Below, piece by piece: positions 24,172-47,646 of a DNA stretch of 64,000 bases (positions are counted from its first letter, which is position 1; each line of letters opens with the position of its first letter). The translations under genes and the position numbers were made by a program. This DNA comes from Bacteroidota bacterium (GTDB taxonomy: Bacteria; Bacteroidota; Bacteroidia; B-17B0; Aurantibacillaceae): the NCBI GenBank assembly GCA_030684395.1, contig JAUXTT010000017.1, forward strand, positions 248,001 through 312,000, read 5' to 3'. The notes under the pieces are model-generated. The model was not told the DNA's origin. It was given only the letters and a program-made list of their open reading frames with translations, and did no database searches.

Positions 24172-24624
24172 TTATTTCGTAAAAGTTGCATCAACCGTGT
24201 CCTTTATAGTATTCCCATCATCAATAACATAAGTCATAGTAAACTTATTTGAATTAACCATTTTCCCTTTCCCGTCCAGAACAAATACACTTCCTACTTG
24301 CTGGCCGTCAGGTGCAATCTTAATGCTATCACCATATATAATAGCCTTAGCTTTGTTCTGAAACCCCAGTGCGTATATGTTTTCAATAAGTACGGTATCT
24401 GCAGTGCTATTGATAACATGCACCTGAAATGGCTGAGCCGGAGGATCTCTGCGACTTACTTCCGTACAAGTCCAATCAGCTATAAACCTAAGCTTCGGAT
24501 CGGTTGTTGGGGTGTTTGGAGCAGGATCTTCCTCGTCTTTTTTACAACCAACAGCCAGTATACAAATAAAGACAGTAGCCAAAGCCACTGTCTTTACGTT
24601 TTTTATATTCAAAAAAGCTCTCAT
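24172..24624 (-). CDS. Lipoprotein, last gene of the adhesin operon
   Basis: A 150-residue protein with a lipobox LAVGC (Cys 27) followed by an acidic, Pro/Thr-rich linker (KKDEEDPAPNTPTTDP). The mature domain of about 100 residues is beta-rich (DWTCTEVSRRDPPAQPF, LRFIAD, VFVLDGKGKM) and ends DTVDATFTK; it resembles lipocalin-like or Ig-like small lipoproteins of Bacteroidota, but I cannot name a family. Its start codon is four bases after the stop of the 3183-residue adhesin, so the two are translationally linked. A role at the outer membrane beside the adhesin is inferred from position only. Confidence 0.75.
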   Translation of the reverse strand: MRAFLNIKNVKTVALATVFICILAVGCKKDEEDPAPNTPTTDPKLRFIADWTCTEVSRRDPPAQPFQVHVINSTADTVLIENIYALGFQNKAKAIIYGDSIKIAPDGQQVGSVFVLDGKGKMVNSNKFTMTYVIDDGNTIKDTVDATFTK

Positions 24625-24628
24625 CTGT

Positions 24629-27600
24629 TTATCTTACAACGGTTACATGCCCGGTTAAATTATGCTTATTATTTTTAATATCATAAGCCATAATTTTCCA
24701 AATGTATACATCTTCCTGAACCGGATCTGATTTTCCGTTTACCTTTCCGTCCCAACCTTTACTTAAACTATTCGATTGGAAAATGATTTCTCCCCAACGA
24801 TCAAAAATAAACATTTGAAATCTTTCTTCATCAATGCCAATACCCTGAGGGAAGAATGATTCGTTCTTGCCATCTTCATTCGGGCTGAACGCGTTTGGAA
24901 CATATATAGCAAATTCAGGCTCAATATAAATCTGATGCGTAACATCATCTACACATCCATTAATTGAAGTAACCAGTAAATTTATATCATACAAGCCCGG
25001 TCCTTCGTAATTATGGGTCGGGTTTTGCAAAACAGAAACATTATCAAGTGAAGTTAGTTCTCCAAAATTCCATTCGTACGTTGAAGCCAATGAGCTTCTG
25101 TCGTAGAAACTAATCAGTGGGTCAAATTCAGTTGTATTTAATGGATTATAAGTGAATGCAGCAATTGGGTTAGGATAAACCGTAACGTAAGCCGGCATTG
25201 TTACAACATCCACACATCCCAACGGAGTTGTAACAGTTAATTCAACATCATAAGAAGTACTCTGCAAACCATTAGTTGTGTAAGTGTGTGAGATCAATGC
25301 TCCAAAGCCTTCTGTATTATCTCCAAACGACCACTCATAAACACAATTAGGGAATGCGGCGCCTCCTGAACCGGAAAAAGAAACATCCAGATCAGCACAA
25401 CCGGCAAGGTTGCTTCCAATTAAACTGGCAGTAGGTGTTGGGTTTATAAATATGGTATGATTTACTGAGGTATCCTTAGAACAACCATCAGATGCAGTTA
25501 CTGTAAATATTTGCTGATGATCAGGATCATCCTGAGCAGTTACTGTGGGATTAGGATCTGTCATTCCTCCCGGTGTCCAGCTATAAGTAATTGTTCCGCC
25601 AGCCGAAGTATTTCCACCTGTTGCATTTGCTGACAAGGAAACAAGATCATTGTTACAAACTGTATAACTCTGTGCTGTCATCATTATCGGCGGAAGAGCT
25701 GTTACATCAATTGTTTGACCTGCTATTGGAATACATCCGTTTACATCAACAACCATAACTCCGTAAGTATGTAATGGTGTGGTATAAGAAGGGCGAACCC
25801 AATGTGGTCCGTTTGATAAAGAGCCTGAAGTAGAAGTAAGGGCAGGAACCGGTATGGAATTATGTGTCCATGTCCATGAATAGGGTGGTGTACCGCCTCC
25901 AACGTTCGCAGAAATTTGCGTTGAGTCTCCATAGCAAATAGTTTGATCTGTTGAAGCAACCAATATAACCTGCGAAGGTTGTGCAACCACTGCTACGGAG
26001 TTAAAGAAACAACCATTCGCATCCTGCACATGCACAGCATAAGTACCGGCCATAATACCACTTATAGAATCATTTGGAACCGGGCCTGAAACCAATTGCG
26101 TTCCTCCGGCGGTTGTCCATGTATACACCAGTGGGGCTGTGCCTCCGGTAGCATCCACATCAAGGGCTCCTGTTGCCTGTCCGAAACATTTAGCTGAGTA
26201 GGTTCCCATATTCGCTTCAGTAGGGCCTGCCGCGTTTGGAACAACCACATCAATTCCTATTGCACAACCGTTTAAATCGGTTACATCACAATGATATAAA
26301 TTTGCCGATAAACTATTTGCGCTTGAAAGAACAGAATTTGGCACGTTATTCCAAAGGTATGTATAACCAGGTGTTCCTCCCGTTGCAATAACAGTTGCAC
26401 TACCGTTAGCCAAGCCACATGATGCAGTTGAAACAGTACTATCAAGCAATACCTGAGTTGGCTCGTCAATTGTCGCTATCTGGTTGTCTGTACATCCACG
26501 GAAATCGACTAACGATAAAGTATAAGAACCCGCTTCCAATCCTGAAATAGCTGGTGTTCCCGGGTTAACGAACCCTACATTAGTTGATGTCCAGTTGTAT
26601 GAATAAACAGGTGTACCTCCCGTTGCGGTAACACTAATTTCCCCATCACTTAATCCGAAACAACTGATATCTGTTTCAGTTGGGTTTGAAATCACCAAAG
26701 CCTGTGGCTGGCTAATAATAACAGTAGTAGAATCTTTACAGCCTCGCATATCGGTAACCATTACGGTATAGGTAACACTGCTTCCTATAGGACCAACTCC
26801 AAGGCCGGCAAAATTTACTGAAGTATTAGGGGCAATACCAGCCTGCGTTTGAAGTGGGTTGTATAAACTTATAGTATAAGCATTTATTTCTGAAGCATCC
26901 GAAGGATCGTAGAACCCTCCATTTGCCTGCACTACTGTAGAACCATTAAATAAATTATAACATGTTACATCCTGATAAGAAACGATTCCCGTAACTACAT
27001 CAGTAGGTTCCATAATAAAAACCTGATCACCACCAAAACATCCTGCCGAGTCATAAACTGCAATCGTTGCAAAACCACCCGGTAAGTTTGAAGCAGATAA
27101 GCCCGGCTGAGTAGTTTCTACCCATCCTAAAGATTGATAAGGTAATGTACCACCAAACACCGAAGCAAGTGCCGTACCATTATTGGCCCCAAAACAAGTG
27201 ATCATAGTTGAATCAATAACACTTACTGTTGGACCATCTATATCATTCACAACAGTAGAACTTAACACCTGGCAGCCTATAGCATCGGTTACTGCAATGG
27301 TATATTGTCCACCAACCAAACCCGGATTATATGGAGTTGCAACTCCATTACTCCATGCTATAGTGTGAGGAGTAGCCCCACCCGTAATAACAACATTAGT
27401 AGCGCCATCTGCAAAAAGACAGTGCGAAGAATCTGCTGTTAAAGCAATGGTAAATTCAGGTGGTTCATTAATAAATATAGTTGTTGAATCTTTACATCCA
27501 TTATCATCTGTAACAACAACAGTATGCGAACCTGCACAAAGTGTTACCGGATTATTCACAGTATACTGTGAAGGAGTCCAATGATACATGTATGGTCCTG

Positions 27601-30600
27601 TTCCTCCGCCTACAGTAGCAAAAGCCCCTCCATCACAAATTGGAGGATAAGGTGGTGCATAATTACAAGTGATATCTGTTTTTGTAACACTTAAAGTCAG
27701 AGCAGGCGGTGCCGTTAAAACTACTTGCTCCTGATCAGTACATCCATTATTGTCAGTAACTGTCAATGTATATGTTCCAGCATCCAAATTAATATTATTT
27801 GCTCCAACAAATGAGTTACTCCATGTATATGTATAATTAGCAGTTCCTCCGCTTGCTGACCCTTGAGCAAATGCATCATTTGTATTAAAACAACTTTCAT
27901 TTCCTGAAGTTAAAATAGCTGCAACCAATTGCGTTGGTTCCGTTATGGTTGTGCTGGAGGTTGCCGTACAATTATTAGCATCAGTAATGTTTACTGTATA
28001 AGAGCCTGCACATAATCCTGAAGCGGTTTGTGTTGTTTGTCCACCGGTCCAGGTATATTGTATGGGCAATGTAGCATTTCCTATTATTGCTGCTGCTGAG
28101 CCAATACACTGGTTAAAACAACTTAAATTAACGGTAGTAATACTTGCGGTTAAAGCAGGGGGATCTACAAGGTTTATGGATGTTGTTGCAGTACATCCAT
28201 TTGCATCTGTAACAATTACATTATATGGACCTGCACTTAAGCCCGTTGCATTCGCACTTAGCTGAGCAGGTATTGTTGTCCAGGAATATGAATAGCCTGC
28301 ACCCGGGGTTCCGCCTAATGCACCGGCTGTTCCTGTACCGTTATTTCCACCGTTACATTTTGGGTCCACACCTGAGGCATTTGCTATAAGTAAAGTCGGT
28401 TCGGTAATAGTAACACCTGTTGAGGCGACACAACCATTTTGATCTGTTGCGGATACAGTATAAATGCCAGCACATAAATTTGTAGCACTTGTTGTAACTG
28501 ATCCATTTTGCCATGCGTAGGTATAAGGGCCAATTCCTCCAACAACATTTACGGTTGCCGTTCCATCGCAACCTCCATTACAAAGAACATTTGTTGAAGC
28601 GGTTATTGTTGCAACAGGCCCTGCAAGGTCTGTTATTGTAACAGGATATGCCTGAGTACAATTATTATTATCTTTAATCGTAATTGTATAAGTACCTGCA
28701 GCTAAATTTGTGAAATCCCCCGGATTAATAAAAGCACCTGCATTTAGTGCAAAAGAATAGGTTCCTGCACCACCCGATCCCGTAACTGAAATAGATCCAT
28801 CTGATTGATTACAGTGTGAACTTGCGACAACAGGTGTTATAGTAAGAAGTGTTGGTTCGGTTATGGTTCTTGTTCCGGTAACAGTACATCCATGCGCATC
28901 TGTAACTGTTAAAGAATACGTTCCAATCGGAAGTGAACTAATATTAGCAGTTGCACCAACAAATGGTGACCAAACATAATTATAACTTAAAGTTCCTCCG
29001 TTTACTGTAGCACTAATAGTTCCATCATTACCACCATTACAACTTACATTCGTTGATACAAATGTTAATGTTAAAGGCAATGGTTCCGTAACTGCAGCAT
29101 TTGCTGTAGCTGTGCAGCCAAAGTTATCTGTAATATTAACAGTATATGTTCCCGTAGTTAATCCTGAAGCTGTAGCTGCATTGCCACCACTTGGTGTCCA
29201 GGTATAAGAATAAGAAGTTGCTGCCGTTGCACTCATTGACACCGTTATGCTTCCATCACTTCCTCCATTACAACTAACCTGAGTAACAGATGAGATTGTT
29301 GCAGTACCACCAGGGGTAATACCAATTGCAGTGTTTCCTGTGGCAGTACAATTATTGGCATCCGTTACAGTAACCGAATAATTTCCTGCAACAACACCAA
29401 TTGTTGTTGCCCCTGTGCCACCTGCAGGAGTCCAGGCATAAGTGTAACCTCCGGTTCCTCCTGCTGCTGTTGCTGTTGCTGTTCCATTAGCAGCAGTACA
29501 ATTTGCATTAACAGAAGACATTACAACTGAAACCACGGTAGGTTGACTTAAAGTAACCGGAACAGGGAAAGTACATCCATTGTTATCCCTTACTGTAACT
29601 GTATATACTCCCGCTGTTAAACCTGTAAATGCACCGCTGGCTCCAAAAGCACCACCATTTAATGAATACTGGTATGCAGGTGTTCCGTTTAAACCTCCTA
29701 CTGTTAAAGAACCATTTGTGCCGGCATTACACAACGGATCTGCTTGTGTAATGATAGACCCTGTCAAAAGTGTAGGCTGAGTAATACTTACTGTTTGAGT
29801 TGCGCTACAAGTGGCCGCATCTATTACAGTTACAGTATAGGTTCCGAGTGCAAGGTTGGTAAATATCCCCGTAAGATTTGAAGTCCCGGTATTTAATGTA
29901 TAAGTAAACCCGCCTGCACCTCCGGCAGCTGTAAAGGTTGCTGTACCATCGGAACCTCCATTGCAACTCACATTTGTTTGGGCTGTTAAGACAACCGTTG
30001 GAGCTCCAACGTTTCCAACTGTAATAGTATTAGTTACTAAACAATTGTTTGCATCCTTAACTGTAACGGTATAAGTAGCGGGCAACAATGAATTAAACGA
30101 AGTACTCGCCTGATAAGTTGTTCCACCATCAATAGAATACTGAAAAGCTGAAGTACCGCCGGTAACTGCCCCCACTGTAATCACACCGTTGGCGGCACCA
30201 CAATTTGCAGGTGTTTGTGTTAATGCAACTGCAGTTGGTCCTGCTGTATTTCCAATCACAGGATTTACAGTAAGCAAACATCCATTAGCATCTGATACTG
30301 TTATTGTATGAGTTCCCGCTGCAAGGTTGGTATAGTTTGTAGTTGTTGTAAAAGCTCCGGCTAAATCCAATTGGAAAGTAATAGTAGGTGTACCTCCTGT
30401 TGTGGCACCAACGTTTAATGATCCATTTGTATTACCGCAAGTAGAATTGGTTGGAGTAACAACCTGTGCTGTTGGGCCAGGAGTATTTGCCACTGCAACT
30501 GTTTGCGAGAACTGACATCCGTTTGCATCCTGCACTAAAACAGTATGTGTGGTTGCGGATAAATTTATAAAACCAGTTCCGGCCTGTAAAGCCCCACCAT

Positions 30601-33600
30601 CAATAGAGTATTGGAAAGAAGTTGATCCGGAAGTTGTAACCGCACCAACAGTAACAGATCCGTTGTTATTTCCACAAGTGGAATTTGTTGGAGTTAATAC
30701 AACAGCCGTTGGACCGGGTGTATCTGCAACTGTTGCGGTTGTAGTAAAAGTACAACCTTTTGAGTCTCTTACAATCACATTATAAGTACCTGCCGTAATA
30801 GTATAAGAAGTTGTTGCTGAGAAACCACCACCATTAAATGAGAATGTATATGGTCCGGTTCCGCCTGTAGTTGCTCCAATTGTTACAACACCATTTGGAT
30901 TTCCACAAGTAGAGTTTGTAGTTGAAGTGGCTTGAGCCGTTGGAGGTAAACTTGGATCAACCGTAATGGTTGTAGCAAAAACACAGCCATTAGCATCTCT
31001 CACAGATACCGGATAAGTTCCTGCTGCAATACCCGTATAATTTGTTGTTCCGGTAAATCCGCTTCCGTTAAAATCGTACACAAACGGGCCGGTTCCCCCG
31101 GTGACTACTCCAATCGTAACGGTTCCATTATTTGGAGCACAATCTGAAGGAGTGCTGGTAACCGCAAGAGCTGTTGGACCAACATTACTTGCTACTGCAA
31201 CCGTTTCTGTATATTGACAACCATTTCCATCCTGAACAATCACAGTGTGTGTTGTTGCTGTTTGACCTGTATAAAGAGTTGTTGCATTAAATGCTCCTCC
31301 ATCAAAAGAATAAGTCATTGCTCCTGCTCCACCTGTAACCGCTCCAATTGTTACAGAACCATTACTTGCACCACAATTTGCAGGCGCCGTAGTAAGTACC
31401 ACATCTGTTGGACCACTAGAAGAAGTTACAGTTGTTGTTTGAGTAAAAGTACATCCGTTTACATCTCGTACGGTCACAGTATAAGTTCCTGCAGCTAAAT
31501 TAGTAATTGGAGAAGTCGCTGTAAATGGTCCTGCGTTAAATGAAAAAGTATTTCCGCCACCGCCGCCCGTAACAGCTCCAATTGTTATTTGACCATTACT
31601 GGATCCACAATTGGCAGGTGCCGGGGTCAAAACTAAATTAGTTGGGCCGGGGTTATTTGCTACTGTAACAGTTGTGGTATATGTACATCCAAAATTATCT
31701 GTTACTCCGGCATTATAAGTACCGGGCAATAAATTAGTATAGGTGGTAGTTGAAGAGTAAGCTCCACCATTAAATGAATAAGTATATGCTGCCGAACCAC
31801 CTGTTGTAGCTCCAAAAACTATTTGACCGGTTGCTGTTCCACAATTAGCACTTGTTGGTGTGATTGTTTGAGCCGTTGGCCCACCTGCATTTGCAACTAC
31901 AATGTTTTCCGTATAAGTACAGTTATTTCCGTCGGTTACAACAATGGTATATGTGGCCGGTGCCATTGACCCAAAAGTTCCGGCAGCAGTTGCTGCTCCA
32001 TTAATTGTGTATAAATAGGTCGCAACCCCACCTGTAACAGCTCCTATTGTTACTGATCCGTCGGCCTGAGAACAATGTGCCGTTGCTGAACTCAAAGCAA
32101 GATCGGTTGGGCCCGGGATATTAGTTAACGTAAATTGAGTGGTAGTAGTACATGTGGTACCATTTCTTACAGAAACAGTATAAGTTCCGGGACCTAAATT
32201 AGTATAACTTGTAGTAGCTGAATAAGCCCCTCCGTTAAATGAATAAGTAGTTCCGGGGCCTGTAATATTAATAGCACCATTATTTAATCCGCAGGTAGGT
32301 TGAGTTAAAGTTGCAGTAGGTGTAGCAGGCATTGGATTCACAGTAATAGCTGCTGTAAAAGTATTAGAACAGGTACCTGATGTTATGGTTAATGAAACCG
32401 TATATGTTGCTGCTGCTGCGTAAGTATGTGTTTGAGCTCCGGTTGCAGTTGTAGCTGCCGGGTTTGTCCCGTCGCCAAAATCAAAATCATAAGTAGTTGT
32501 ACCGGCTACAATTGAGCCCGCTGTGGATCCTGTTGTAAGAGGTGTAAAGGAATAGTTATTTCCTGTTAAACACTGGGCTGCCGGAGGCGTGAAACTTGCC
32601 ACAACAGAACCTGTTGCCGTGAGTGTAGTTGTGAACGTTCTTGTACAATTGTTAGCATCACGAATAAAAACCGTATATGTTCCTGCTGCTTGACCCGTAT
32701 AATTTTGATTTGCCGTTACGTTTGTAGATACATAAGTTGAACCATTATCAAGAGAAATATCATATGGACTGGTTCCACCAGAAAGAGCAGTAACAGCAAT
32801 TGAACCCGCTGCAGTGCAAGTTGGATTAGTTGGAGTAACTGTTGCTGCTATTTGAGTTGGTTGTGTTACTGTAACAGTAACCGTTTGTAAACAAGATGAA
32901 ACATCAATTACATCTACAGTATACGTTCCTGCCGCCAAACCGGTAACGTTACTTGCTCCCGCAACACCCGTACTGTTGTTTGTATAACCTGCGGGACCCG
33001 ACCAATTGTATGTATAAGGTCCATTAGCCCCTACCGGAGTTGCTGTTGCAGTACCATTAGTTCCTCCAAAACAACTGACCGGAGTTGCGGCAATTGTAGG
33101 CGGACAACATGCAGTAGCTGCAATAAAATTTGTGGGAGGATCTCCACCACAACCTGCATCATCCCAACCACCTGATTCACCATCACCACTGGTATTAACA
33201 GAAACATTCAAACTTGCCCCCGGGTTACAGGCAACCGCTGTGGTAATAGACCAGCAAAAATTCCATTCGCCGGCAGGTATATTGTATACGGTTGTTGTGT
33301 TTCCGGCAGGTATTGGATCACCAAAATTATTTCCCGGATTATTAACTGCACCTGTATTATAATAAAATCCAGCGGGCCATACTACATCATCTCCTGTAGG
33401 AACAGTTCCTAATGTTGCTGTAGTTCCTCCGGGATAGTATGCCCATGCTCCGCTTCCACCATAAGATCCGGGAGCAGTAGTGGTTAAAGACCCTAAATCC
33501 CATCCATTTCCAAAAGTCATTTGAACACCATGCAACCAATTAGTAAGCGTTTGTTGCCACTGATCAATATGGAAACAAAAGCTAACTGCTGTGCCTGGTA

Positions 33601-34180: not shown

Positions 34181-34181
34181 A

Positions 34182-34574: not shown

Positions 34575-34628
34575 TCTTAATGTTTAGTTAACTTGTTTTC
34601 CAACTGATTTTTGAAAACACATAAGTAC

Positions 34629-34662
34629 CAAAAATAACAAAACAAATGTTAAAAACCTACAA
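34629..34662 (-). promoter_or_regulatory. Promoter of adhesin module 2
   Basis: On the minus strand: TTG (34662-34660), 23-base spacer, TATTTTTG (34636-34629), at the upper limit of the Bacteroidota spacing. The small-protein ATG is about 55 bases downstream. The 256-base gap also holds the terminator of module 1. Confidence 0.5.
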
Positions 34663-34784
34663 TATTATACATTAACTCATGTTCTTAGAACGTTTAATTT
34701 CCGATTAAAAACGGATTTTATCCGACGAACACATAATACTGATATATAAATTTCTCTTTTGCGATAACTAAATGGTAACAAAAA

Positions 34785-34808
34785 GGGCCTGCCTTTTTAG
34801 GCAAGCCC
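34785..34808 (-). terminator. Terminator after the 4145-aa adhesin
   Basis: A 9-base stem with one mismatch (GGGCTTGCC paired with GGCAGGCCC on the minus strand), a 6-base loop and a following T run, 22 bases after the stop codon. It separates the two adhesin modules. Confidence 0.75.
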
Positions 34809-34830
34809 TCATAAAAACCCTGTTTTCAAG

Positions 34831-37800
34831 TTATCTTACAACAGTAACATGCCCGGTTAAATTATGCTTATTCTTTTTTAAGTCATAAGCAAGAATCTTC
34901 CAAACATAAACATCTTCCTGCACAATAGTTGATTTTCCATTCGCTGTTCCATCCCAACCTTTGTTTAGGTCATTCGATTCGAAAATTAATTCGCCCCATC
35001 TGTTATAGATGTACATATGATATTTTTCATTACTAATACCTATTCCCTGTGGTCCGAATAACTCATTCTTAGTATCTTCGTTTGGAGTGAAGGCATTCGG
35101 CACATAGATGGCAAATTCCGGTTCTATATAGATCTGGTGTGTAACCTCGGCTGTACAGCCTTTATCAGTAGTTGTAACAAGGTTAACATCATAATATCCG
35201 GGGTTTAAATATGTATGCATAGGATCTACATCTGCTGAAGTATTGCTTAAAGAAACAAGTTCTCCAAAATTCCATGAATAAGTGTCTCCCAATAAACTCT
35301 GATTGTAGAAGTTTATAACAGGATCAAATTCCGTAGTATTTAAAGGATCAAAAGTAAATTCAGCAACCGGATTTGGATACACGGTAACGTAATTTGTCAT
35401 TGTTGCAGTATCTGAACAGCCTAATGGAGTCGTTACTGTTAATTCTACTGTATACATATCTGTTTGCAATCCCGTTGAAGTATAAGTGTGAGTCATTGCA
35501 GAATCAGAACCTGTTGTATTGTCACCAAACGACCAACCATAAGTACATCCCGGGAAGCCCAATCCACCTGAACCGGAGAAGGAAACTGCTAAATCTGCAC
35601 AGCCTTCAGTATTAATTCCGATCAGACTGGCATTAGGTGTAGGGTTTGAAGAAACGGTAATACTAATGTTTTCAGGAGTAGAACAACCATCGTCTACTGT
35701 AATATTATATACAGAAGGTAATGAACTGGTAACGGCAACCGTTGTTGAAGATGTAGCTCCGGTTTCGGTAAACACCGGTGAAGTGCCCCACGTATAGGTA
35801 TAAGGCGCTCCATCGCCTCCAACAGCAGACGCATTTAACGTTACTGATTCTCCCATACAGCCTGTTACTGCAGGTGCAGTGGCAGTAATTTTTGGAAGAA
35901 CCGTTATTGTGAATGTTTTTTGAATAGGTCCGCAATTGTTGGCATCATTAATTGATACTGTATATGGTTCAAAAATTGTTGAGCTCGTATTATTTGTAAA
36001 CGTTAAGTTGTGATTACCGCCGGTAGTAAATGTACTTGCTCCGGTTCCCGTCCAACTGTATGTGTATCCGGGTGTTCCATTTCCTCCAGTTGCAGAAACC
36101 CCGATTGTTTGTCCGTTACACACCGTTTGATCGGCACTTGTAGTTAAATACAATTGTAATGGCTGTGTGATAGTGGCAGTACCAATAACATCACATGATC
36201 CGGCAGGGTTTGTGAAAGTCTCCGTCACTACAACATTGTAGGTTCCAACACCAAGCCCGTTTACCAACTGGGTTTGCCCAACACTAGTTGATCCCTGCGT
36301 CCAATTGTAAGAAAAAGTACCGGCAGCCGAACCGGCCTTTGGATAAACAACTGCCATACCATCCAGTAAACCGAAACAAGAAATGTTTGTTACAGAAATA
36401 CTATCGATAGAAGGTGGTGGAATATCATTAACCGTTGCTGAAACAGGTTTTGTACATCCATGTGAATCGGTAATAATACAATTATAGGTTCCCGGTGCTG
36501 CTAAATTAGTTGCACTTGCACTTGTTTGCAATGGCGAAGTATTCCAGCTATAAGTGAATCCGGGCGATGCTCCTGACACAACAAGTGAAATAGAAGCGTT
36601 TGATTGTGTACAACGACTTGGTATAGTTGTAATATCAACTTTAAAAGAATCCGGTTGAGAAATATTATATGCAGAGTTAGCCAAACAACCATTTCCGTCC
36701 TCTACCTGAACAACATAAGTTGCCGGTACCAAATTTGTAACAACCGAACCAACATCTGCAGAATTAGGAGACCATGAGTATGTATAAGCCGGAGTACCAC
36801 CGGTTGGAGTTATGTTAATTGATCCATCACCTGCTCCATAACAATTTACGTTAATAGCTGAGTTTGTAATAATAACCAAAGGTAAAGGTTGAGTTATAGT
36901 TACGCTTTGTGAAGTAGGGCATCCATTTGCATCAGTTACATTACAAGTATATGTTCCGGCAGCAAGACCAACAGCCGTAGCTACTGTTTGTGCAGAAAGG
37001 TCTGTCCATTGATAAGTATAAGGTGTGGTTCCGCCATTCACTAACATGGTTGAATTACCGTTACTTAAACCGTTACATGTAACATGGTTTGTATTAGCAA
37101 TTAGTGAAACCAGTTCTGTTGGTTCTACAATTGGTACTGTAATTGAAGAAACACATCCTGCCGCATCAACCACCTGATAAACATTATTCCCGGGCCACAA
37201 TGCATTACCCGTTTGGTCCGGATTAGGCATTAATGTGGATGGCAACAACCACTCTTGTGCTGTGTAAGGTGTAGTTCCACCAACAACTCCAATCACACCG
37301 ATACCATTATTCAATCCAAAACAGGTTATATCTGTAGAGCTTGTTAAAGTTAATGTTGGAGCAGGGATGTCATTTACGTTTGCAACTGCATTTACTACAC
37401 AACCATTTCCATCTGTTACGTTAACGGAATAAACTCCACCGGCTAAATTTGTGTTAAGTGCAAAGGTTGAACCGTTGGTCCACAAATAACTAAATGGAGA
37501 TGTTCCACCAGATACCTGAACTTGAGCTGATCCGTTACTTTGACCACAGAAGTTATTTCCGTTTACAACAGTCGAAGCAATCAATTCAGACGGCTCTGTT
37601 ATAACTGTTGTTGCAGTTTGAGAACATCCATTTGCGTCGGTAATGGTTACGGTATGTGTACCATCGCATAAAGCTGTTGGATTAAATACAGAAGCTAATG
37701 ATGGTTGCCACACAAAATTATAAGGTGCAGTTCCGCCACTAAAATTAGCTGTTGCAGTTCCATCACATAAATTATAACAGGTAGCATTCGTACTCGCCAC

Positions 37801-40800
37801 ATTGATTACAAGTGGATTCGGTGTGTTTACAACCAGTGTAGACTGAGAGGTACAACCATTCGCATCAGTAACGGTTGCTGAATAACTTCCTGCACATATA
37901 TTATTGTTAACAGGTGTAGTTACGGAATTAGACCATGAATAAGCATAAGGTGTAGTACCTCCTGCAGGGCTTACGGTACCCGATCCATCACATACTCCTG
38001 AACATGAAACATCAAGCGGATTAATAATGCTTGTTGTTAACAGGGTTGGCTCAACTATGTTGGTAGCAGCAGAAGCTGTACATCCTTTGAAGTCAGTAAT
38101 ATCAAGCGTGAAGGTTCCGGCACATAATCCGGTTGCTGTTTGAGTACTTTGTGCATTAGGATCGCTCCATACATATAAGAATGGGCTTGTACCGTTATTT
38201 GTTACTGCTGATGCAGTTCCGTTGCATGCTCCATTACAGGTTACATCGGTTTCATTTATAGTAACTGTTAATAACGGCGGATTAACAAGGACAATACTAG
38301 TTGTTGCAGTACATCCATTTGCGTCTGTAACAGTAACGTTATGGTTACCGCTAGGCAGATTGGTTGCATTAGCCGTATTTTGAACAGGTAAAACTGCCCA
38401 TTGGAAAGCATAAGGTGTTGTTCCGCCAAAAGCAGCCGCACTTCCTGTTCCGGTAGATTGTCCATTACAAACAGGGTCTGTTCCGGTAGCGTTTATTTGT
38501 AATACATCAGGCTCAGTAATAATGATAGATGCGCCTGCATTACATCCGTTAGCATCTGTAACTACTACACCATAAACTCCTGCCGATAAATTGGAAGCTG
38601 TTTGAGTGGTTTGTGCAGAAGGTGTCCAAACATAATTGTATGGTGTACTTCCTCCGGTTGCGCTTACTGTTGCCGAACCATTATTACCTCCATTACAATT
38701 TACATTTGAGCTTGCGGTAATTGTAGCTGTAGGTCCTGCCAAATCAACAAGTGTTAAAGGTAAATCTGTTTGACAAAGATTGGCATCCTGAAGTGTAATA
38801 GTATAAGTAGTTGCAGATAAATTAGTAAAACTACCCGGGCCAAATGGACCACCGTTCATTGAGAAGGTATAACCACCGGCACCACCACTACCTGTAACAG
38901 TAGCACTTCCATCTGCCTGATTACAATGTGGGTCGCTGATTACAGGTGTCATAGCAAGAGCAGTTGGTTCCGTTAAAGTTCTTGTTCCTGTTACAGTACA
39001 GCCGTTTGCATCAGTTGCGGTTAAACTGTATGCTCCAACAGGTAAACCGCTAATTACAGCAGTATTGAAAGCTCCGGGACTCCAGGAGTACGTATAAGGC
39101 GCGGTTCCTCCTGTAACATTAGAGCTGATTGTACCATCACTTCCTCCGTTACAACTAACATTAGTAGATGTAAAACTAACGTTTAGTACTAAAGGTTCTG
39201 TAATAGCTGCATTTGTAGTTGCTATACACCCATGATCGTCAGTTACTGTAACAGAATATGTACCTGGCGCTAAACCTGTAACTGTTGCAGTATTTCCCAC
39301 ATTCGGAGTCCAAACATAAGAGAAAGGTGCAGTTGAACCTCCGCCCATTGATACAGTCATTGAACCATTGGCAGCAGCATTACATGTAACATTTGTAACA
39401 CCAGACATAGTTGCAGTTCCTCCCGGTGTTACTCCTATTGTAGTATTACCGGTTGCGGTACAACCATTGGCATCGGTTACTGTAACCGAGTATGTTCCTG
39501 CAACAAGTGGGATAGTAGTTGTAGCTGTTCCGCCACCACCTGTCCATGCTTGTGTATATCCTGATGTTCCCCCCGAAGGTGTAACTGTTGCAGTTCCATT
39601 ATCATCTGTACAATTCGCATTTACTGAAGAGAAGGCTAAAACTAATGCAGTTGGCTCACTAATTGTTACCGGTACATCAAACTGACATCCCAGATTATCC
39701 TCAACTGTAACAGTATAGCTTGCAGCAATCAATCCGCCAAAGGTAGCAGATGCGCCAAACGCTCCTCCGTTTAATGAATAAGTATACGGTGCTGTACCTC
39801 CGGTTTGGGTAACGGTAACTGATCCGTTGTTTCCTCCAAAACAAGAAACTTCTGTTTGTGCCTGTATGGAGCCTGCCAATACAACAGGCTCTGTAATAGT
39901 AACAGTTTCTGTTGTGATACATCCTGCCGCATCGGTAACTGTAACCGTGTATGTATTTGCAACTAAACCGCCAAATATTCCGGTACCATTAGTGGCGCCA
40001 GTATTTAAGGTATAAGTAAATCCACCTGCTCCACCTACAGCTGTAAAAGTAACACTTCCGTTGTTTCCTCCATTACAACTTACATTGGTTTGGGCACTAA
40101 CACTTGCAACGGGAGAACCAAGATTGGTCACATCAACTGTATTGGTTAAAATACAATTATTAGCATCTTTAACTGTTACCGTATAAATAGCAGGTAATAA
40201 ACCGGTGAAAGATACACTTGCCTGGAAGTTAACACCATCAATCGAATACTCATATGCAGGAGCGCCTCCTGTTACAACCCCAACCGTGATAGTTCCATTA
40301 GGGTTACCACAATTTGAAGGTGTTGCGCCCAAAGGAAGAGCTGTTGGCCCTGGTAAGTCAGTAACAATTGTTGTTACAGAATAGGTACAGTTATTTGCAT
40401 CACTTACAGTAATAGTATGTGTACCAGCTGATACAGTATAGGTTGTTGTTGCTGATAATGCACCGCCGTTTAATGAAAATTGATATGCAGGTGTTCCTCC
40501 TGTTGTTGCGCCAATAGTAATTGTTCCATTTGCACCACCACAACTTGAACTTGTATTAGTAACTGCCTGATCCGTTGGAGAAGGCGTATCAGCCACAGTA
40601 GTTGTAACGGTAAACGTACACGCATTGGCATCCTGAACAACAATAGTATAGTTAGAAGCCGTTAATCCGGTAAATGGTCCTGAAGGAACAGGAGCACCAC
40701 CATTTAATGAAAATGTATAAGGTGCCGTTCCACCAGTTGTTACGCCTAATGTGATTTCCCCATTTGCATTACTACAAGTAGAATTTACCGGAGTTATCAC

Positions 40801-43800
40801 CTGAGCAGTAGGTCCCGGTATATCATTTAATGTAGTGGTTGAAGTGAATTGACATCCGTTAACATCCTGCACAATTATATTAAACGTTCCGGCCCCACTT
40901 GTATAAGTGGTAGTTGCTGAAAAAGCACTTCCATTAAATGAATAAGTATAAGGAGCGGTTCCATCTGTCGTTGCGCCAAAAGTCACCGTTCCGTTAGCAT
41001 TTCCACAAGTTGCATCTGTTGTAGTTACAGCTTGCGCGGTTGGACTTGGTGTTATAGCAATGGTTACGTTATCAGTAAACTGACACCCGTTTCCATCACT
41101 TACTGCAACAGCATAAGTTCCCGGAGCAATTCCGGTGTAATTTGTTGTTGCAGTAAAAGGGCTTCCGTTAAATGAATAAGTAAACGGCGCAGCACCACCC
41201 GTTTGCCCGGTAATTGTAACTGTTCCGTTATCAGGAACACAAGAAGAAGGAGTTGGTGTAGCCGCAATAGCAGTTGGTCCACCGCTATTCCCAACAGCTA
41301 CAGTTGTTGTAAATGTACAAGCATTTGCATCACTCACTATAACTGTGTGTGTAGACGCTGCTAATCCTGTATAATTGATAGTGCCTGATAAAGAACCACC
41401 GTCAACCGAATATTGATATGGAGCAGTACCACCGGTAACGGCGCCAATTGTTATAGATCCGTTGCTTGCTCCACATGTTGCATCAACCGGGGTTGTTACC
41501 ACGGCTGTTGGGCCAGGAGTGTCAGAAATATTTGTTGTTGTTGAAAAAACACAACCATTCCCGTCGGTAACTTCAACTGTGTAAGTGGCTGCCGCTAATC
41601 CTGTATATGTAGTTGTTGTTGTTGATGCACCAGCATTTACAGAAAACGAATAAGTTGCTACACCACCAGTAACGGCTCCAATAGCAATTTGTCCGTTACT
41701 ATTTCCGCAGGTAGATGGCGTTGGCGTAATAGCAATTGCAGTTGGTGCAGGAGAATCAAATACATCAACAGTAACTGTGTATGTGCAGTTATTTGCATCC
41801 TGAACTCCCACTGTATGGGTTCCGGCAGCTGTAGTATAAGAAGTAGTAGCACTAAAAGCTCCACCATCAAAATTATAGGTATAAACCGCAGTTCCGCCTG
41901 TTGTTGCACCTATTGTTACAACTCCGTTTGCATTTCCACAGGTTGAATTTGTAGTTGTGTTTGCCTGTGCAGTTGGTCCCGGAGTATCGGCAACAACTGC
42001 AGTTACGGTAAACGTACAATTATTGACGTCACTTACCACAACTGTATGGGTTCCTGCCGAAGTTGTATAGGTAGTTGTTGCACCAAAAACTCCCGCATCA
42101 AAACTAAAAGTATAAGGAGATGTTCCACCTGTTGTTAATCCTGCAGTAACAACACCATTGGCATTTCCGCATGTTGAGTTAGTTGTGGAGATAGCTTGAG
42201 CTGTTGGCCCGGGTGTATCACTAATTGTAGCTGTTGAGGCAAACTGACATCCGTTGGCATCCTGAACCGCTATGTTGTATGTACCCGCAGCAACCGTATA
42301 TGTAGTAGTTGCACCAAAGGCTCCTCCATTAAAAGAATAAGTATATGGCCCTGTTCCTCCTGTTGTAGCACCAAAAGTTACTGTACCATTAGCGTTACCA
42401 CAGGTAGAATTTGTTGTTGTTGTTGCCTGTGCCGTAGGGCTTGGTGTAATAGCAATCGTTACTGAAATAGCGAACTGACAGTTATTGGCATCTTTTACAG
42501 CAACAGGATAAGTTCCGGGTGCAATACCATTATAATTCATAGTTCCTGTGAATGCACTTCCGTTAAATGAATAGGTATAAGGACCTACACCACCCGTTTG
42601 CCCTGTAATTGTAACTGTTCCGTTATCGGGAGTACAAGAAGAAGCTGTAGTAGTAGCAGTTAGCCCGGTAGGTCCGCCACTGTTACTCACTGCAACTGTT
42701 TCGGTATATTGACAACCATTTGCATCCTGAACAATTACAGCATAAGTATTAGCCACAAGCAACGGGTAATTTGTAGTTCCCGAAAAAGCACCGCCATCAA
42801 AAGAATAGGTATAAGCACCTGTTCCTCCCGTAACTGCGCCAATGGTAACGCTTCCATTAGCTGCGCCGCATGTTGCATCAGTAGGAGTAAGAACCACATC
42901 AGTAGGACCCGGTGTATTTGTTACTGCAATTGTATTCTGAAAAGTACAGCCATTTGCATCCTGAACCGCAACAGTATATGTTGATCCAGATGCTAAACCT
43001 ATGATTGGTGATGTGGCAGTGAAAGGACCTCCATTAAAGGAATAAGTATAAGCAGCAGTTCCGCCTGTTACAGCTCCAATGGTAATCTGCCCATTTGCAT
43101 TTCCACAGGTTGAAGGCGTTTGAGTAAGTGCCAAAGCTGTTGGGCCGGCAGTATTATTTACCGTTGCGGTAACAGTGAAGGTACAGCTGTTTGCATCGCT
43201 TACCACAACTGTATGAGTACCTGATGCCACAGTATAAGATGTGGTTGCACTGAAAGCACCTGCATCAAAACTATAAGTATAAGCGGCTGTTCCACCGGTT
43301 GTTGCACCAATTGTTACAACCCCGTTTGCGTTTCCACAGGTTGAATTTGTAGTGGATGTAGCCTGAGCCGTAGGACCCGGGGTATTTGTAACTACCGGAT
43401 TAACCGTGAATGTGCAGTTATTCGCATCTCTTACTATTACTGTGTGGGTACCTGCAGCAACTGTATAAGAAGTAGTTCCGGTAAAACCACTGCCATCAAA
43501 ACTATATGTGTAAGCCGCGGTTCCGCCGGTTGTTGCGCCAATATTTACAACACCATTCGTGTTTCCGCAAGTAGAGTTATTAGTTGTAGTAGCCTGTGCC
43601 GTTGGTCCCGGTGTGTTTGTTACAACAGGGTTGACCGTAAATGTACAGCCTTTTGAATCTCTCACAACAACTGTGTGGGTACCTGCTGCTACTGTATATG
43701 ATGTTGTGGCAACAAATGCGCCTCCATCAAATGAATAGGAATATGCTGCAGTACCACCCGTGGTTGCACCTATAGTAACCACGCCATTAGGGTTTCCGCA

Positions 43801-46800
43801 AGTAGAACTTGTTGTTGTGGTTGCCTGAGCTGTGGGGCTTGGGCTGATTCCAACAGTTACTGTAGTTGCAGCCTGACAACCGTTATTATCTCTAACAGAA
43901 ACATTATACGTTCCGGGAGCAATACCGGTATAATTTGTTGTTGCTGTGAAAGGACTACCATTAAATGAATAAGTGAACGGGGCAACACCTCCGGTTTGAC
44001 CGGTAATGGTAACTGTACCATCATTAGGTGTACAGGAAGACGCAGTTACTGTTGCAGTTACTGCTGTAGGACCACTACTATTGGTAATAGCAACTGTTTC
44101 AGTATAAAGACAGCCATTATTATCTCTTACTGTAACCGAATACGTTCCGGCTGCCTGACCAGTAATAGGCGAAGTAGCTGTATATGGTCCTGCCGGGTTA
44201 TTGAAAGAATAAGTATAAGCGGCAGTTCCGCCTGTTACAGCTCCTATGGTTATTTGTCCGTTACTCGCGCCGCAGGTAGCCTGGGTTGGAGTTAAAACAA
44301 CATCGGTGGGTCCTGCAGTGTTTGCTACAACTGTTGTTTGCGTAAAAACACAACCGTTAGCATCTCTAACAGTTACAGAATACGTGCCTGCCGATAAAGC
44401 AGTAATAGGAGAAGTAGCCGTAAAAGGGCCTGCGGGATTATTGAAAGAATAAGTAAACGCCGCGGTTCCACCGGTAACAGCTCCGATTACAATTTGTCCG
44501 TTTGCATTTCCACAGGTAGAAGGAGTTGGAGTAAGCGCCAATGCAGTAGGTCCGGCATTTGTCCCGACCGCTATACTTCCATTTAATGTACAGCCAAAAT
44601 TATCTCTTACAACATAATTGTAAGTTCCGGCAGCTAAGCCTGTGAAATTGGTAGTAGCCGCAAATCCTGCCCCGTTAAAATTATAGGTAAAAGGTCCGGT
44701 ACCTGTTGTTGGTGGGGCAAGTGTAACGGTTCCATTACTCGCACCACATGAAGCATTTGTGGAAGTAGCATTTGGACCTGTTGGGCCCGCCGCATTAGGA
44801 ACGTTTACTGTTGTTGTATAAGTACAATTATTTGCATCTCTCACCGTAACCGTATGTGTTCCCGTTGCCTGGCCTGTATATAATGTAGTTCCGCTAAATC
44901 CAACAGTTGGAGTTACTGAATAGGAATATGCTGCAGTTCCTCCGGTAACAGCTCCAAGCGTAATGGATCCATCCGACTGGCCACAATGAGCAGTAGCAAT
45001 AGTTGTGGCTATAGCCGTTGGACCCGGTACATTGGTTAGAGTAACTGTTGAAGTGTTTGTACATCCGTTAGCATCTCTAACATTGACTGTATAAGTTCCA
45101 GGACCTTGTCCAGTATAGTTTGTAAGTGCTGTAAAACCACCTGCGTTCAAACTGTATTGATAAGCAGGAGTTCCGCCTGTTGCTGCCGTAACGTTAATTG
45201 CGCCATTGTTTGCGCCACAAGTTGGCTGTACAGGAGTTAATGCCGGTCCATTCGGACGCGGATAAATTGTTACCTGGACAGTGTTAGTTGCTACACATGA
45301 TCCTTGTGTAACCTGATGTGTAACAGTATATGATCCTGCTACGGCCCACGTAACGCCACCCGGGCTGGTTGCTGCACTTGTTCCGGGAGTGCCACTGGGA
45401 AAAGTCCAGGCATGGGTGATCCCTCCACCGGCAGAACCGGTGTTAGTAAAAGTAAAGGTATTCCCATTCAGACACTGATTGGGTGAATTAGTAAATGTTG
45501 CTGTAACAGTACCGGTTATAGCAATAACGGCCGTTGCTGTTGCTGTACATCCTCTTGAATCCGTTACTGTAACTGTATATGTATTTGGTGAAAGACCTGT
45601 TGGATCTTGCCCCGTACCTCCAGAAGGAGCCCAGGAATAAGTGTAGCCAGGTGTTCCGCCACCCGGAGTAAGATTTATAGAGCCATTATTTCCTGCACAC
45701 GTAGCATTAGTAGGAACTGCTGTTGTTGTTATAGCCGGAGGAATTGTTATCGTAAACGTGTTTTGCCCCATACAACCACCACCATCTCTGGTTCTCACTG
45801 TATATGAACCAGCGGCAAGTCCGGTGTAATTACCTGAAGCTTGAAATGCTGCGCCGTTTAAAGAGTAGGTATATGGTGCACCTGATCCCCCTGAGCCAAC
45901 CGAAGTAACAGAACCTGTTCCGGTAGAGCAGTTTGGATTTGTTGGAGTAACTGCAACAGTAGGACCGGTTACGGTAAAGTTGAAACAGCCGGGTGCAGCT
46001 ACATTTCCGCATAAATCTGTTACAGATCCGGATGTTCCTACAAGGCACAATGAGTAAGTTCCTGAAGTTGTAATTGCAGGAGTTGTGGTTACTGTGAAGG
46101 TGTTTTCGGAAGGTGCTCCAACACTACATGCTGATCCGGTAATCCCTGTAACCGTATAAGGTCCGCCTGGTCCGGCCAAGGTAAAATCGGCAGCACTTAC
46201 CGTACTACACAAAATATTCTCCGACATGTTGAAAGAGAAACTAGTTGCACCACAAGTAGGTGTTGAAGTTAATGAATTAATTGAAGGAGCTATATTATCA
46301 AATATTGTAGCAGTGGATGCACCAAAATCAAGAGAGTAACCTGCAGTAGACGTGGTAAATTGACTTACATTGATTACATACGTTTGACCGGCTGTAACAG
46401 GAATTACGGGCTCGTTTTGTGTGCCGGGACTACCATTAGGGCCGGTAACACCAGAAAGACCACTGAAGTTACAACTCACCTCTAAAGCTGTGTTGGAATA
46501 TATATCCGAACAGTTATTACTGGTAAGATTGTATACAGCCCAATCATAATCATCTGTCATTGTATTTGGGGTAATTGAAAAGTCCAGATTACCTGAGGTT
46601 TGAACGGTAAACTGATACCACACGTCGTTTTTTTCTCCCGAACCCAGGCATGAGTTGGTTGAGTTTATCTCATTGGCAACGTTTCCTGTACCGGAATACG
46701 CTGTTCCTTGATTGTATACGTTTTGACAAACAGGAATAGCTCCTAAACAATCCTGTGTATTAGGAACAGGTGGTGGAGGTGGCGCCCCAAAGCTTACGCT

Positions 46801-47268
46801 CCAACTATTTAATGTCCCCGCATCTCCTCCAACATCATCCGTTATACATAAGCTCCACGTGCCATTTGCATTTTGTCCATTATTTGCAGTTGCCATACTT
46901 CCTTCAGGGATATAACTTCCGGTGAAAGGTGCGGTTCCGGCTGTTACACTAGTTGCTGCAGACATGCTGAAACAAGTATTTGTATAGTTGTCGCCCGAAC
47001 CGCCATTATCAGTTGTAAGCTCAACCATCGTTCCATCAGGAGCCCTTAAAAATATATCTAAATCAGACAACCAGGGGTGTGTGGCGTTAATACAAACTTG
47101 ATTAACTCCATAAGCACCATTTATAGTTCCGACACCTGTTACGTTTACTGTATAACAGGTTTGTGTAGCATTATCAGGAATGGCTCCTGTTGATCCACCG
47201 CCAAACGTTTGAGCATTTATTACTTGTGTCAAGAACAAACACAAAAATGGTAGTATGAGTTTTTTCAT
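34831..47268 (-). CDS. Giant SprB-repeat adhesin (4145 aa) with P-domain and T9SS type B domain
   Basis: The signal peptide ends near NAQ. Residues of about 25-165 are a proprotein-convertase P-domain-like sandwich (HPWLSDLDIFLRAPDGTMVEL, GTWSLCITDDVGGDAGTLNSW). A second N-terminal domain (NDVWYQFTVQTSGNLDF) and a Big-like domain follow. By eye I count 41 SprB-type repeats of about 77 residues with one PKD after unit 2, then Ig-like units, two PKD domains and a CHU_C tail (VPNAFTPNEDTKN, YNRWGELIF, GWDGTANG) nearly identical to that of the 3183-residue paralogue. At about 12.4 kb it fills a fifth of the window. T9SS export and surface attachment are predicted. A small secreted protein gene is 30 bases upstream. 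Units 6-23 are three copies of a six-unit super-repeat. Confidence 0.93.
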   Translation of the reverse strand: MKKLILPFLCLFLTQVINAQTFGGGSTGAIPDNATQTCYTVNVTGVGTINGAYGVNQVCINATHPWLSDLDIFLRAPDGTMVELTTDNGGSGDNYTNTCFSMSAATSVTAGTAPFTGSYIPEGSMATANNGQNANGTWSLCITDDVGGDAGTLNSWSVSFGAPPPPPVPNTQDCLGAIPVCQNVYNQGTAYSGTGNVANEINSTNSCLGSGEKNDVWYQFTVQTSGNLDFSITPNTMTDDYDWAVYNLTSNNCSDIYSNTALEVSCNFSGLSGVTGPNGSPGTQNEPVIPVTAGQTYVINVSQFTTSTAGYSLDFGASTATIFDNIAPSINSLTSTPTCGATSFSFNMSENILCSTVSAADFTLAGPGGPYTVTGITGSACSVGAPSENTFTVTTTPAITTSGTYSLCLVGTSGSVTDLCGNVAAPGCFNFTVTGPTVAVTPTNPNCSTGTGSVTSVGSGGSGAPYTYSLNGAAFQASGNYTGLAAGSYTVRTRDGGGCMGQNTFTITIPPAITTTAVPTNATCAGNNGSINLTPGGGTPGYTYSWAPSGGTGQDPTGLSPNTYTVTVTDSRGCTATATAVIAITGTVTATFTNSPNQCLNGNTFTFTNTGSAGGGITHAWTFPSGTPGTSAATSPGGVTWAVAGSYTVTHQVTQGSCVATNTVQVTIYPRPNGPALTPVQPTCGANNGAINVTAATGGTPAYQYSLNAGGFTALTNYTGQGPGTYTVNVRDANGCTNTSTVTLTNVPGPTAIATTIATAHCGQSDGSITLGAVTGGTAAYSYSVTPTVGFSGTTLYTGQATGTHTVTVRDANNCTYTTTVNVPNAAGPTGPNATSTNASCGASNGTVTLAPPTTGTGPFTYNFNGAGFAATTNFTGLAAGTYNYVVRDNFGCTLNGSIAVGTNAGPTALALTPTPSTCGNANGQIVIGAVTGGTAAFTYSFNNPAGPFTATSPITALSAGTYSVTVRDANGCVFTQTTVVANTAGPTDVVLTPTQATCGASNGQITIGAVTGGTAAYTYSFNNPAGPYTATSPITGQAAGTYSVTVRDNNGCLYTETVAITNSSGPTAVTATVTASSCTPNDGTVTITGQTGGVAPFTYSFNGSPFTATTNYTGIAPGTYNVSVRDNNGCQAATTVTVGISPSPTAQATTTTSSTCGNPNGVVTIGATTGGTAAYSYSFDGGAFVATTSYTVAAGTHTVVVRDSKGCTFTVNPVVTNTPGPTAQATTTNNSTCGNTNGVVNIGATTGGTAAYTYSFDGSGFTGTTSYTVAAGTHTVIVRDANNCTFTVNPVVTNTPGPTAQATSTTNSTCGNANGVVTIGATTGGTAAYTYSFDAGAFSATTSYTVASGTHTVVVSDANSCTFTVTATVNNTAGPTALALTQTPSTCGNANGQITIGAVTGGTAAYTYSFNGGPFTATSPIIGLASGSTYTVAVQDANGCTFQNTIAVTNTPGPTDVVLTPTDATCGAANGSVTIGAVTGGTGAYTYSFDGGAFSGTTNYPLLVANTYAVIVQDANGCQYTETVAVSNSGGPTGLTATTTASSCTPDNGTVTITGQTGGVGPYTYSFNGSAFTGTMNYNGIAPGTYPVAVKDANNCQFAISVTIAITPSPTAQATTTTNSTCGNANGTVTFGATTGGTGPYTYSFNGGAFGATTTYTVAAGTYNIAVQDANGCQFASTATISDTPGPTAQAISTTNSTCGNANGVVTAGLTTGGTSPYTFSFDAGVFGATTTYTTSAGTHTVVVSDVNNCTFTVTAVVADTPGPTAQANTTTNSTCGNANGVVTIGATTGGTAVYTYNFDGGAFSATTSYTTAAGTHTVGVQDANNCTYTVTVDVFDSPAPTAIAITPTPSTCGNSNGQIAIGAVTGGVATYSFSVNAGASTTTTTYTGLAAATYTVEVTDGNGCVFSTTTNISDTPGPTAVVTTPVDATCGASNGSITIGAVTGGTAPYQYSVDGGSLSGTINYTGLAASTHTVIVSDANACTFTTTVAVGNSGGPTAIAATPTPSSCVPDNGTVTITGQTGGAAPFTYSFNGSPFTATTNYTGIAPGTYAVAVSDGNGCQFTDNVTIAITPSPTAQAVTTTDATCGNANGTVTFGATTDGTAPYTYSFNGSAFSATTTYTSGAGTFNIIVQDVNGCQFTSTTTLNDIPGPTAQVITPVNSTCSNANGEITLGVTTGGTAPYTFSLNGGAPVPSGPFTGLTASNYTIVVQDANACTFTVTTTVADTPSPTDQAVTNTSSSCGGANGTITIGATTGGTPAYQFSLNGGALSATTTYTVSAGTHTITVSDANNCTYSVTTIVTDLPGPTALPLGATPSNCGNPNGTITVGVVTGGAPAYEYSIDGVNFQASVSFTGLLPAIYTVTVKDANNCILTNTVDVTNLGSPVASVSAQTNVSCNGGNNGSVTFTAVGGAGGFTYTLNTGATNGTGIFGGLVANTYTVTVTDAAGCITTETVTITEPVVLAGSIQAQTEVSCFGGNNGSVTVTQTGGTAPYTYSLNGGAFGASATFGGLIAASYTVTVEDNLGCQFDVPVTISEPTALVLAFSSVNANCTDDNGTATVTPSGGTSGYTQAWTGGGGTATTTIPLVAGTYSVTVTDANGCTATGNTTIGVTPGGTATMSGVTNVTCNAAANGSMTVSMGGGSTAPFSYVWTPNVGNTATVTGLAPGTYSVTVTDDHGCIATTNAAITEPLVLNVSFTSTNVSCNGGSDGTISSNVTGGTAPYTYSWSPGAFNTAVISGLPVGAYSLTATDANGCTVTGTRTLTEPTALAMTPVISDPHCNQADGSATVTGSGGAGGYTFSMNGGPFGPGSFTNLSATTYTITLQDANLCQTDLPLTLVDLAGPTATITASSNVNCNGGNNGSATVSATGGSTPYNYVWTPSAQTTQTASNLSAGVYGVVVTDANGCNAGASIIITEPDVLQINATGTDPVCNGQSTGTGSAAAFGGTTPYAFQWAVLPVQNTANATNLPSGNHNVTVTDANGCTATTSIVLVNPPLLTVTINETDVTCNGACNGTASAVTNNGTSPFLYVWSDPNAQSTQTATGLCAGTFTLDITDFKGCTASAATNIVEPTLLTTSIINPLDVSCSGVCDGSGTVSPAGGTTPYAYSWSNSVTTPVNNNICAGSYSATVTDANGCTSQSTLVVNTPNPLVINVASTNATCYNLCDGTATANFSGGTAPYNFVWQPSLASVFNPTALCDGTHTVTITDANGCSQTATTVITEPSELIASTVVNGNNFCGQSNGSAQVQVSGGTSPFSYLWTNGSTFALNTNLAGGVYSVNVTDGNGCVVNAVANVNDIPAPTLTLTSSTDITCFGLNNGIGVIGVVGGTTPYTAQEWLLPSTLMPNPDQTGNALWPGNNVYQVVDAAGCVSSITVPIVEPTELVSLIANTNHVTCNGLSNGNSTMLVNGGTTPYTYQWTDLSAQTVATAVGLAAGTYTCNVTDANGCPTSQSVTITQPLPLVIITNSAINVNCYGAGDGSINITPTGGTPAYTYSWSPNSADVGSVVTNLVPATYVVQVEDGNGCLANSAYNISQPDSFKVDITTIPSRCTQSNASISLVVSGASPGFTYSWNTSPLQTSASATNLAAPGTYNCIITDSHGCTKPVSATVNDIPPPSIDSISVTNISCFGLLDGMAVVYPKAGSAAGTFSYNWTQGSTSVGQTQLVNGLGVGTYNVVVTETFTNPAGSCDVIGTATITQPLQLYLTTSADQTVCNGQTIGVSATGGNGTPGYTYSWTGTGASTFTTGGNHNLTFTNNTSSTIFEPYTVSINDANNCGPIQKTFTITVLPKITATAPAVTGCMGESVTLNASAVGGDGAPYTYTWGTSPVFTETGATSSTTVAVTSSLPSVYNITVDDGCSTPENISITVSSNPTPNASLIGINTEGCADLAVSFSGSGGLGFPGCTYGWSFGDNTTGSDSAMTHTYTSTGLQTDMYTVELTVTTPLGCSDTATMTNYVTVYPNPVAEFTFDPLNTTEFDPVINFYNQSLLGDTYSWNFGELVSLSNTSADVDPMHTYLNPGYYDVNLVTTTDKGCTAEVTHQIYIEPEFAIYVPNAFTPNEDTKNELFGPQGIGISNEKYHMYIYNRWGELIFESNDLNKGWDGTANGKSTIVQEDVYVWKILAYDLKKNKHNLTGHVTVVR
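37582..38269 (-). other. SprB-like units 33-35, each with a second Cys pair
   Basis: Within the 4145-residue adhesin these three consecutive units have CNGACNG, CSGVCDG and CYNLCDG at the start, and GLCAG, NICAG and ALCDG before the last strands. All other SprB-type units have only the two standard Cys. Confidence 0.7.
40345..44547 (-). repeat. Three tandem six-unit super-repeats (about 1.4 kb each)
   Basis: Units 6-11 (43141-44547, 1407 bases), 12-17 (41743-43140, 1398 bases) and 18-23 (40345-41742, 1398 bases) repeat the same order of unit types. The third unit of each block starts uniquely with SSC(T/V)P(N/D)(D/N)G and has GQTGG in place of GAVTGG; the fourth to sixth mostly begin TAQ. 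The copies have diverged, so the expansion is not recent. Confidence 0.75.
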
Positions 47269-47298
47269 ATCTATTAAGTTCCAAAAATATTAATGAAT

Positions 47299-47646
47299 TT
47301 ATTTCTTATTTTTTCTATAGTGAATATATGCCTGTTTCTCAGCCTTTTCGCCAACTCCAAAAAAGTCTAGTGTATATTTTGGAGAAGTCCAGGATTCGAT
47401 AAGTTCTTTAGATACTTCTTTTTTGGTAACAAGTTTAAAATACATCGCAGGAAAATCCTGACAATTGAAATAAACCACCTCAGTATTTTTATTTAAAAGT
47501 TCTTCAAACTCTTTGTATTTTTCTTTGGTATCGATACTTGCTGAACAAAAGAAATAAGTATGTTCAGAGGTTTGCATAAAATTGGTTTTGTTACTAAAAC
47601 CAGAAATTATAACTATTAAAAATCCGAGTAATAAAAATTTTTTCAT
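47299..47646 (-). CDS. Small secreted protein, first gene of adhesin module 1
   Basis: A 115-residue protein with a signal peptide (MKKFLLLGFLIVIISGFSNK). The mature part reads as strand (TYFFCSASI), helix (KEKYKEFEELLNKN), strands (TEVVYFNCQDFPAMYFKLV) and a C-terminal strand before a basic tail (YIHYRKNKK). Two cysteines are present. No family is recognised. It precedes the 4145-residue adhesin by 30 bases and occupies the same place as the 130-residue protein of the other module. Confidence 0.7.
   Translation of the reverse strand: MKKFLLLGFLIVIISGFSNKTNFMQTSEHTYFFCSASIDTKEKYKEFEELLNKNTEVVYFNCQDFPAMYFKLVTKKEVSKELIESWTSPKYTLDFFGVGEKAEKQAYIHYRKNKK

Follow-up and report, generated by a model that had tools for sequence, protein, structure and literature searches.

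Our analysis suggests that two small proteins, A and B, encoded directly in front of two giant T9SS type B adhesins in a Bacteroidota bacterium, are cognate partners of the N-terminal domain of the downstream cargo, each acting as a domain-specific escort or cap made just before the protein that it serves (a reading to which we give a probability of about 0.55). The basis of this cognate partnership is a family-wide pairing in which the small gene comes first and lies close to the cargo gene, the match between partner and type of N-terminal domain, purifying selection and two natural fusions. On a wider scale, we lean towards the view that the pairs belong to a general, undescribed layer of T9SS in Bacteroidia, in which unrelated small exported families would each serve one class of cargo N-terminal domain as escorts or caps, irrespective of the length of the cargo and of whether its tail is type A or type B.

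In the window (the whole stretch of 64,000 nucleotides that was analysed), the two pairs form consecutive modules on the (-) strand. The first opens with the ORF of small protein A (115 aa, 47299-47646), which has a signal-peptide-like N-terminus and no CTD, followed after 30 nt by its candidate cargo, adhesin 1 (4145 aa, 34831-47268). The second opens with the ORF of small protein B (130 aa, 34182-34574), also with a signal-peptide-like N-terminus and a member of a class-wide family, followed after 1 nt by adhesin 2 (3183 aa, 24629-34180). Coordinates, lengths and gaps are those given by an earlier sequence-only reading of this DNA, which had also called the giant proteins T9SS type B adhesins. 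Pfam and NCBIfam searches bear this out: both contain SprB repeats (PF13573) and the type B sorting domain TIGR04131/CHU_C, with TIGR04131 over cut-off in each. Adhesin 1 has a P-domain near its N-terminus, 41 SprB-repeat stretches, PKD and a T9SS type B CTD, and adhesin 2 has a galactose-binding-like N-terminus (GBD_T9SS_assoc; the match is just under cut-off here and over cut-off in relatives), 27 SprB-repeat stretches, PKD and the same type of CTD. A third type B sorted protein lies in the window at 9594-14069 (1491 aa, PKD repeats, CHU_C); a screen by length and signal segment recognised no partner for it.

A terminator and a promoter had been proposed between the modules, and the terminator is the half that stands. 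A strong terminator-like hairpin with a 12-pair stem and a T run occupies 34783-34810 (-), and two terminator-like sites were found in the region where 0.2 were expected. The promoter was not confirmed, as the sigma-70-type site in the gap lies on the opposite strand and does not exceed chance expectation, and the sole exact match to the Bacteroidota-type promoter consensus is located elsewhere than in this gap. A second terminator-like hairpin (24125-24156 (-), 14-pair stem) ends the second unit. Just ahead of it, 4 nt downstream of adhesin 2, is the lipoprotein-like ORF thought to close that module (24172-24624 (-), 150 aa, lipobox-like VGC), for which no family was found. Its position is as described and it may be co-transcribed with the second module, but we rejected it as a recurrent component, because the genes that follow adhesins at other loci are unrelated.

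Neither small protein resembles a known family. A had no Pfam, NCBIfam or PADLOC match and no convincing PDB relative; B belonged to no Pfam or NCBIfam family, and none of 23 B members scanned had a Pfam match. No match to TIGR04131, CHU_C or Por_Secre_tail was found in A or B, so that they are without a T9SS sorting domain of their own. Nor do they fall in a recognisable PorP/SprF sequence family (Pfam, NCBIfam), and we infer that proteins of 115-130 aa are not long enough to form such an outer-membrane barrel. Comparison of A with B yielded no significant similarity (hhalign 12.8%; BLASTP E 2), in agreement with the lack of clear identity noted by eye. The AF2 model of B (12 sequences; mean pLDDT 79, core about 92) predicts the order strand-helix-strand-strand-helix-strand-strand; a Foldseek search found no convincing match for it in the PDB (best E 1.3, probability under 0.1) and the viral structure library gave none. 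The model of A, made from a single sequence, has a pLDDT of 49 and is unusable for a fold comparison with B. By sequence, A is confined to its genus, with one relative only, which likewise stands in front of a P-domain adhesin; between the two, dN/dS is about 0.13, which indicates purifying selection, and values for the partners range from 0.08 to 0.15 where measurable. Two weak A-like matches in other genera were discarded, one (G078) being an unrelated glyoxalase-like ORF and the other (G063) lying inside an unrelated ORF of 428 residues, and the isolated weak PDB and Pfam matches of the small proteins were judged to be due to chance.

Small partners of this kind make up at least five unrelated, unannotated families (A, B, C, D and F) whose members are about 110-150 aa long and begin with a signal-peptide-like segment, signal peptides being called by eye and with a crude hydrophobicity rule rather than with a dedicated predictor. 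C, D and F emerged from inspection of the genes upstream of adhesins and from subsequent searches with the small proteins seen there or with cargo N-termini. Members of B, C and D had no convincing Pfam family, and none of the four F members scanned had a match over cut-off. Profile comparison among the five families gave weak matches alone, several of them in the signal-peptide region, and a common origin is not supported by them. By eye, the order of strands and helices in A, D and F may recall a ferredoxin-like fold, a suspicion on which we base no claim. Family B was found in 25 of 87 host-family genomes by single-sequence search (E <= 0.01; a few of these matches are weak or due to chance) and a profile search across 247 genomes of the class placed it in 30. 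Pairs were seen in several of the bacterial families sampled across the class, the genomes being a sample that includes many metagenome assemblies.

Our results show that these proteins lie directly upstream of T9SS-type cargo at 2/2 non-redundant loci for A, 50/52 for B, 39/40 for C, 7/7 for D and 11/11 for F; these counts are of loci, some closely related, and not of independent origins, and one further F match, which runs off its locus, stands outside the 11. The expectation that homologues would recur in front of T9SS adhesins in close coupling is thus upheld. Within family B, a cargo ORF begins at -47 to +102 nt (median 6) in 48 of 52 non-redundant loci, and in two more the cargo is present but obscured by an ORF-calling problem (L023) or a frameshift (L168). 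The order is reversed in two related genomes, where the adhesin comes first and its tail is followed 18 nt later by a B homologue (L161 1319-1693 (+); L162 1318-1692 (+)), and at one family C locus (L187) no cargo follows. Almost every complete cargo carries a CTD, with TIGR04131 in all seven complete B cargoes scanned. Cargo length runs from about 640 to 4145 aa. It follows that the link to giant SprB-repeat adhesins, as first drawn, was too narrow, F in particular preceding CUB cargo with type A tails, and a need for the partner in giant cargo alone was rejected on the same range of lengths. In the host genome, two proteins of 142 and 133 aa with a signal segment also stand right in front of type B proteins whose N-terminus was recognised as neither CUB nor galactose-binding (GBD) (L115 and L120), and possibly represent more partner families.

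The cargo N-terminus differs with the partner. It is a P-domain with A, galactose-binding-like in 42 loci and CUB in 6 with B, CUB in 37 and other in 2 with C, a second galactose-binding type with D (7 loci), and CUB with F (11 loci). In the mechanism that we propose, the partner, encoded and made first, would cross the inner membrane by Sec. The cargo N-terminal domain would be the first part to enter the periplasm, long before the tail read by the T9SS is made, and on entry its P-domain, galactose-binding-like or CUB domain would be bound by the partner. Such an escort could hold the domain folded, unliganded and non-aggregating until export, after which it would be released or retained as a cap. 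Counted against an escort is that many T9SS proteins do without such a partner.

The best evidence that partner and cargo N-terminus may form one physical unit comes from two natural fusions. Two genomes belonging to one genus carry, right after a B-adhesin pair, an ORF in which a B domain is joined to the front of a CUB adhesin (L211 2130-5606 (-); L212 6317-9778 (+)). Along this ORF come a signal segment, a B-family domain, a CUB domain, repeats and a CHU_C tail, with no second signal segment, and the L212 copy of the fused domain shares 36-39% identity with stand-alone partners that precede CUB cargo (L296 and L029). As judged from the sequences, this suggests that the partner can be exported together with its cargo, in cis, which a purely periplasmic chaperone does not predict. 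Given the fusions, the main rival to the escort is a co-secreted cap, a subunit that would ride on the cargo N-terminal domain and remain permanently on the surface fibre as its tip or as a ligand-binding subunit. In the fusions the B domain stands at the very front of an exported-type CUB adhesin, behind a single signal segment, which favours such a subunit, as does matching to a domain that would be surface-distal. On the other hand, a fusion fits an intramolecular chaperone equally well, and we consider the permanent subunit a possible reading that is clearly less probable than the escort.

The spacing of the pairs bears on a different explanation, in which the small unit or its product would set or sense cargo expression, by translational coupling or periplasmic feedback, and would not bind cargo at all. 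Nearly all gaps between partner and cargo are within 60 nt (family medians 6-27 nt; -50 to +60 nt for A, C, D and F), and 22 pairs overlap, many of them by -4. Together with the upstream order, this favours a regulatory role. Purifying selection on the partner, its matching to an N-terminal domain and its fusion to cargo would, however, be unexpected of a mere coupling device, and a regulatory role is in our view unlikely.

Comparison of tails with N-termini addresses whether the partner could be a translocon- or tail-related accessory that targets the C-terminal sorting domain, in analogy to the SprF-like shuttle. SprF serves type B tails as their shuttle in the outer membrane, and in F. johnsoniae 9 of the 12 genes for type B cargo have a SprF-like gene next to them (PMC12618676); the small proteins likewise adjoin type B cargo. 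The last 300 residues of adhesins 1 and 2 are 65% identical and their repeats about 46%, whereas their first 420 residues are unrelated, as are partners A and B. A second tandem occurs in the same genome (L229 2799-19814 in reverse-strand numbering; contig G000:C16, about 271-291 kb), pairing a 146 aa protein with one of 2176 aa and a 145 aa protein with one of 3126 aa; its tails are 45% identical, and its N-termini and partners differ. The F cargoes scanned have a type A tail (Por_Secre_tail). Because F cargo has type A tails, and because partners differ where tails are 65% identical, the pairing is independent of the tail: by these alignments and domain assignments, the partner follows the cargo N-terminal domain and not the sorting tail. 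A mirror-tree comparison was non-discriminating, distances in family B correlating at 0.47 with the N-terminal domain and 0.51 with the CTD. As the partners also have no Pfam similarity to known families, we hold an accessory of the tail to be very improbable. No PorP/SprF-like gene was found near the window adhesins in ten neighbouring genes scanned. This is no defining failure for membership of the SprB-like type B adhesin class, since 3 of the 12 F. johnsoniae type B cargo genes are also without a SprF-like neighbour (PMC12618676).

The pairing was also recovered from the side of the cargo. Searching with the N-terminus of a B cargo gave 18 places at E <= 1e-58, and B was directly upstream in 18/18, including 12 places absent from the query. 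The corresponding CUB search gave 13 places at E <= 4e-65 with C at 13/13, a largely circular result with 10 of them in the query; among the next 18 CUB-cargo loci, picked by N-terminal similarity alone, 17 had a small coding partner upstream. Among the type B proteins examined in the host genome, a partner accompanied 5/5 of those with a GBD or CUB N-terminus and 4/38 others (Fisher p = 1.3e-4), under criteria that were set after the first examples had been seen (85-200 aa, -90 to +160 nt, signal segment); four partnered proteins are thus without a recognised CUB/GBD N-terminus. In forward and reverse tests alike, the partner genes adjoin a single class of cargo and are conserved along with it, as is expected of a cargo-specific chaperone. 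Coincidental pairing was rejected on the reverse search (18/18), the host-genome test and the forward counts. Passive linkage of unrelated genes inherited together with no functional tie could draw on the close relationship of some counted loci, but we give it almost no credence, as neighbours beyond the pair vary between loci and the pairing recurs across several unrelated small families and many genera and in the whole of the reverse search.

If the escort or cap reading is true, it suggests a function for many hypothetical genes and provides a rule for prediction, in which a CUB or galactose-binding-like N-terminus announces a small gene in front. It would also make testable how a very large cargo is kept competent for export while in the periplasm, and which component is found at the tip of a gliding or adhesive fibre. 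Research on T9SS has so far focused on C-terminal signals and their shuttles, and the partners described here follow the other end of the cargo.

One of the closest known systems is SprB of F. johnsoniae, whose operon neighbours SprC, SprD and SprF have been connected with its function at the surface (Rhodes et al. 2011, cited in PMC12635249). Common to both is that the genes adjoin an adhesin with a type B CTD. Unlike SprF, the partners here are small and soluble-looking, have their genes right in front of the cargo gene, and go with the N-terminal domain of the cargo whatever the type of tail. The open-licence literature on T9SS describes SprF-like shuttles, PorE-like proteins, and SprC and SprD as neighbours, and in it we found no small upstream partner matched to an N-terminal domain, which agrees with the proposal that the accessory is not known from the SprB system. 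With PorP/SprF-like shuttles, the pairs share the association of a cognate accessory gene with a T9SS cargo; there the pairing goes through the C-terminal signal, whereas here C-termini are shared and partners differ. Other secretion systems have dedicated chaperone-cargo gene pairs, in which a small gene beside one cargo is tightly coupled to it and its product is cargo-specific. The pairs described here have in common with these the small gene beside one cargo, the tight coupling and the cargo specificity. No relation in sequence or structure to those chaperones was found and, in contrast to them, the partner here carries a signal-peptide-like N-terminus and is proposed to act outside the cytoplasm.
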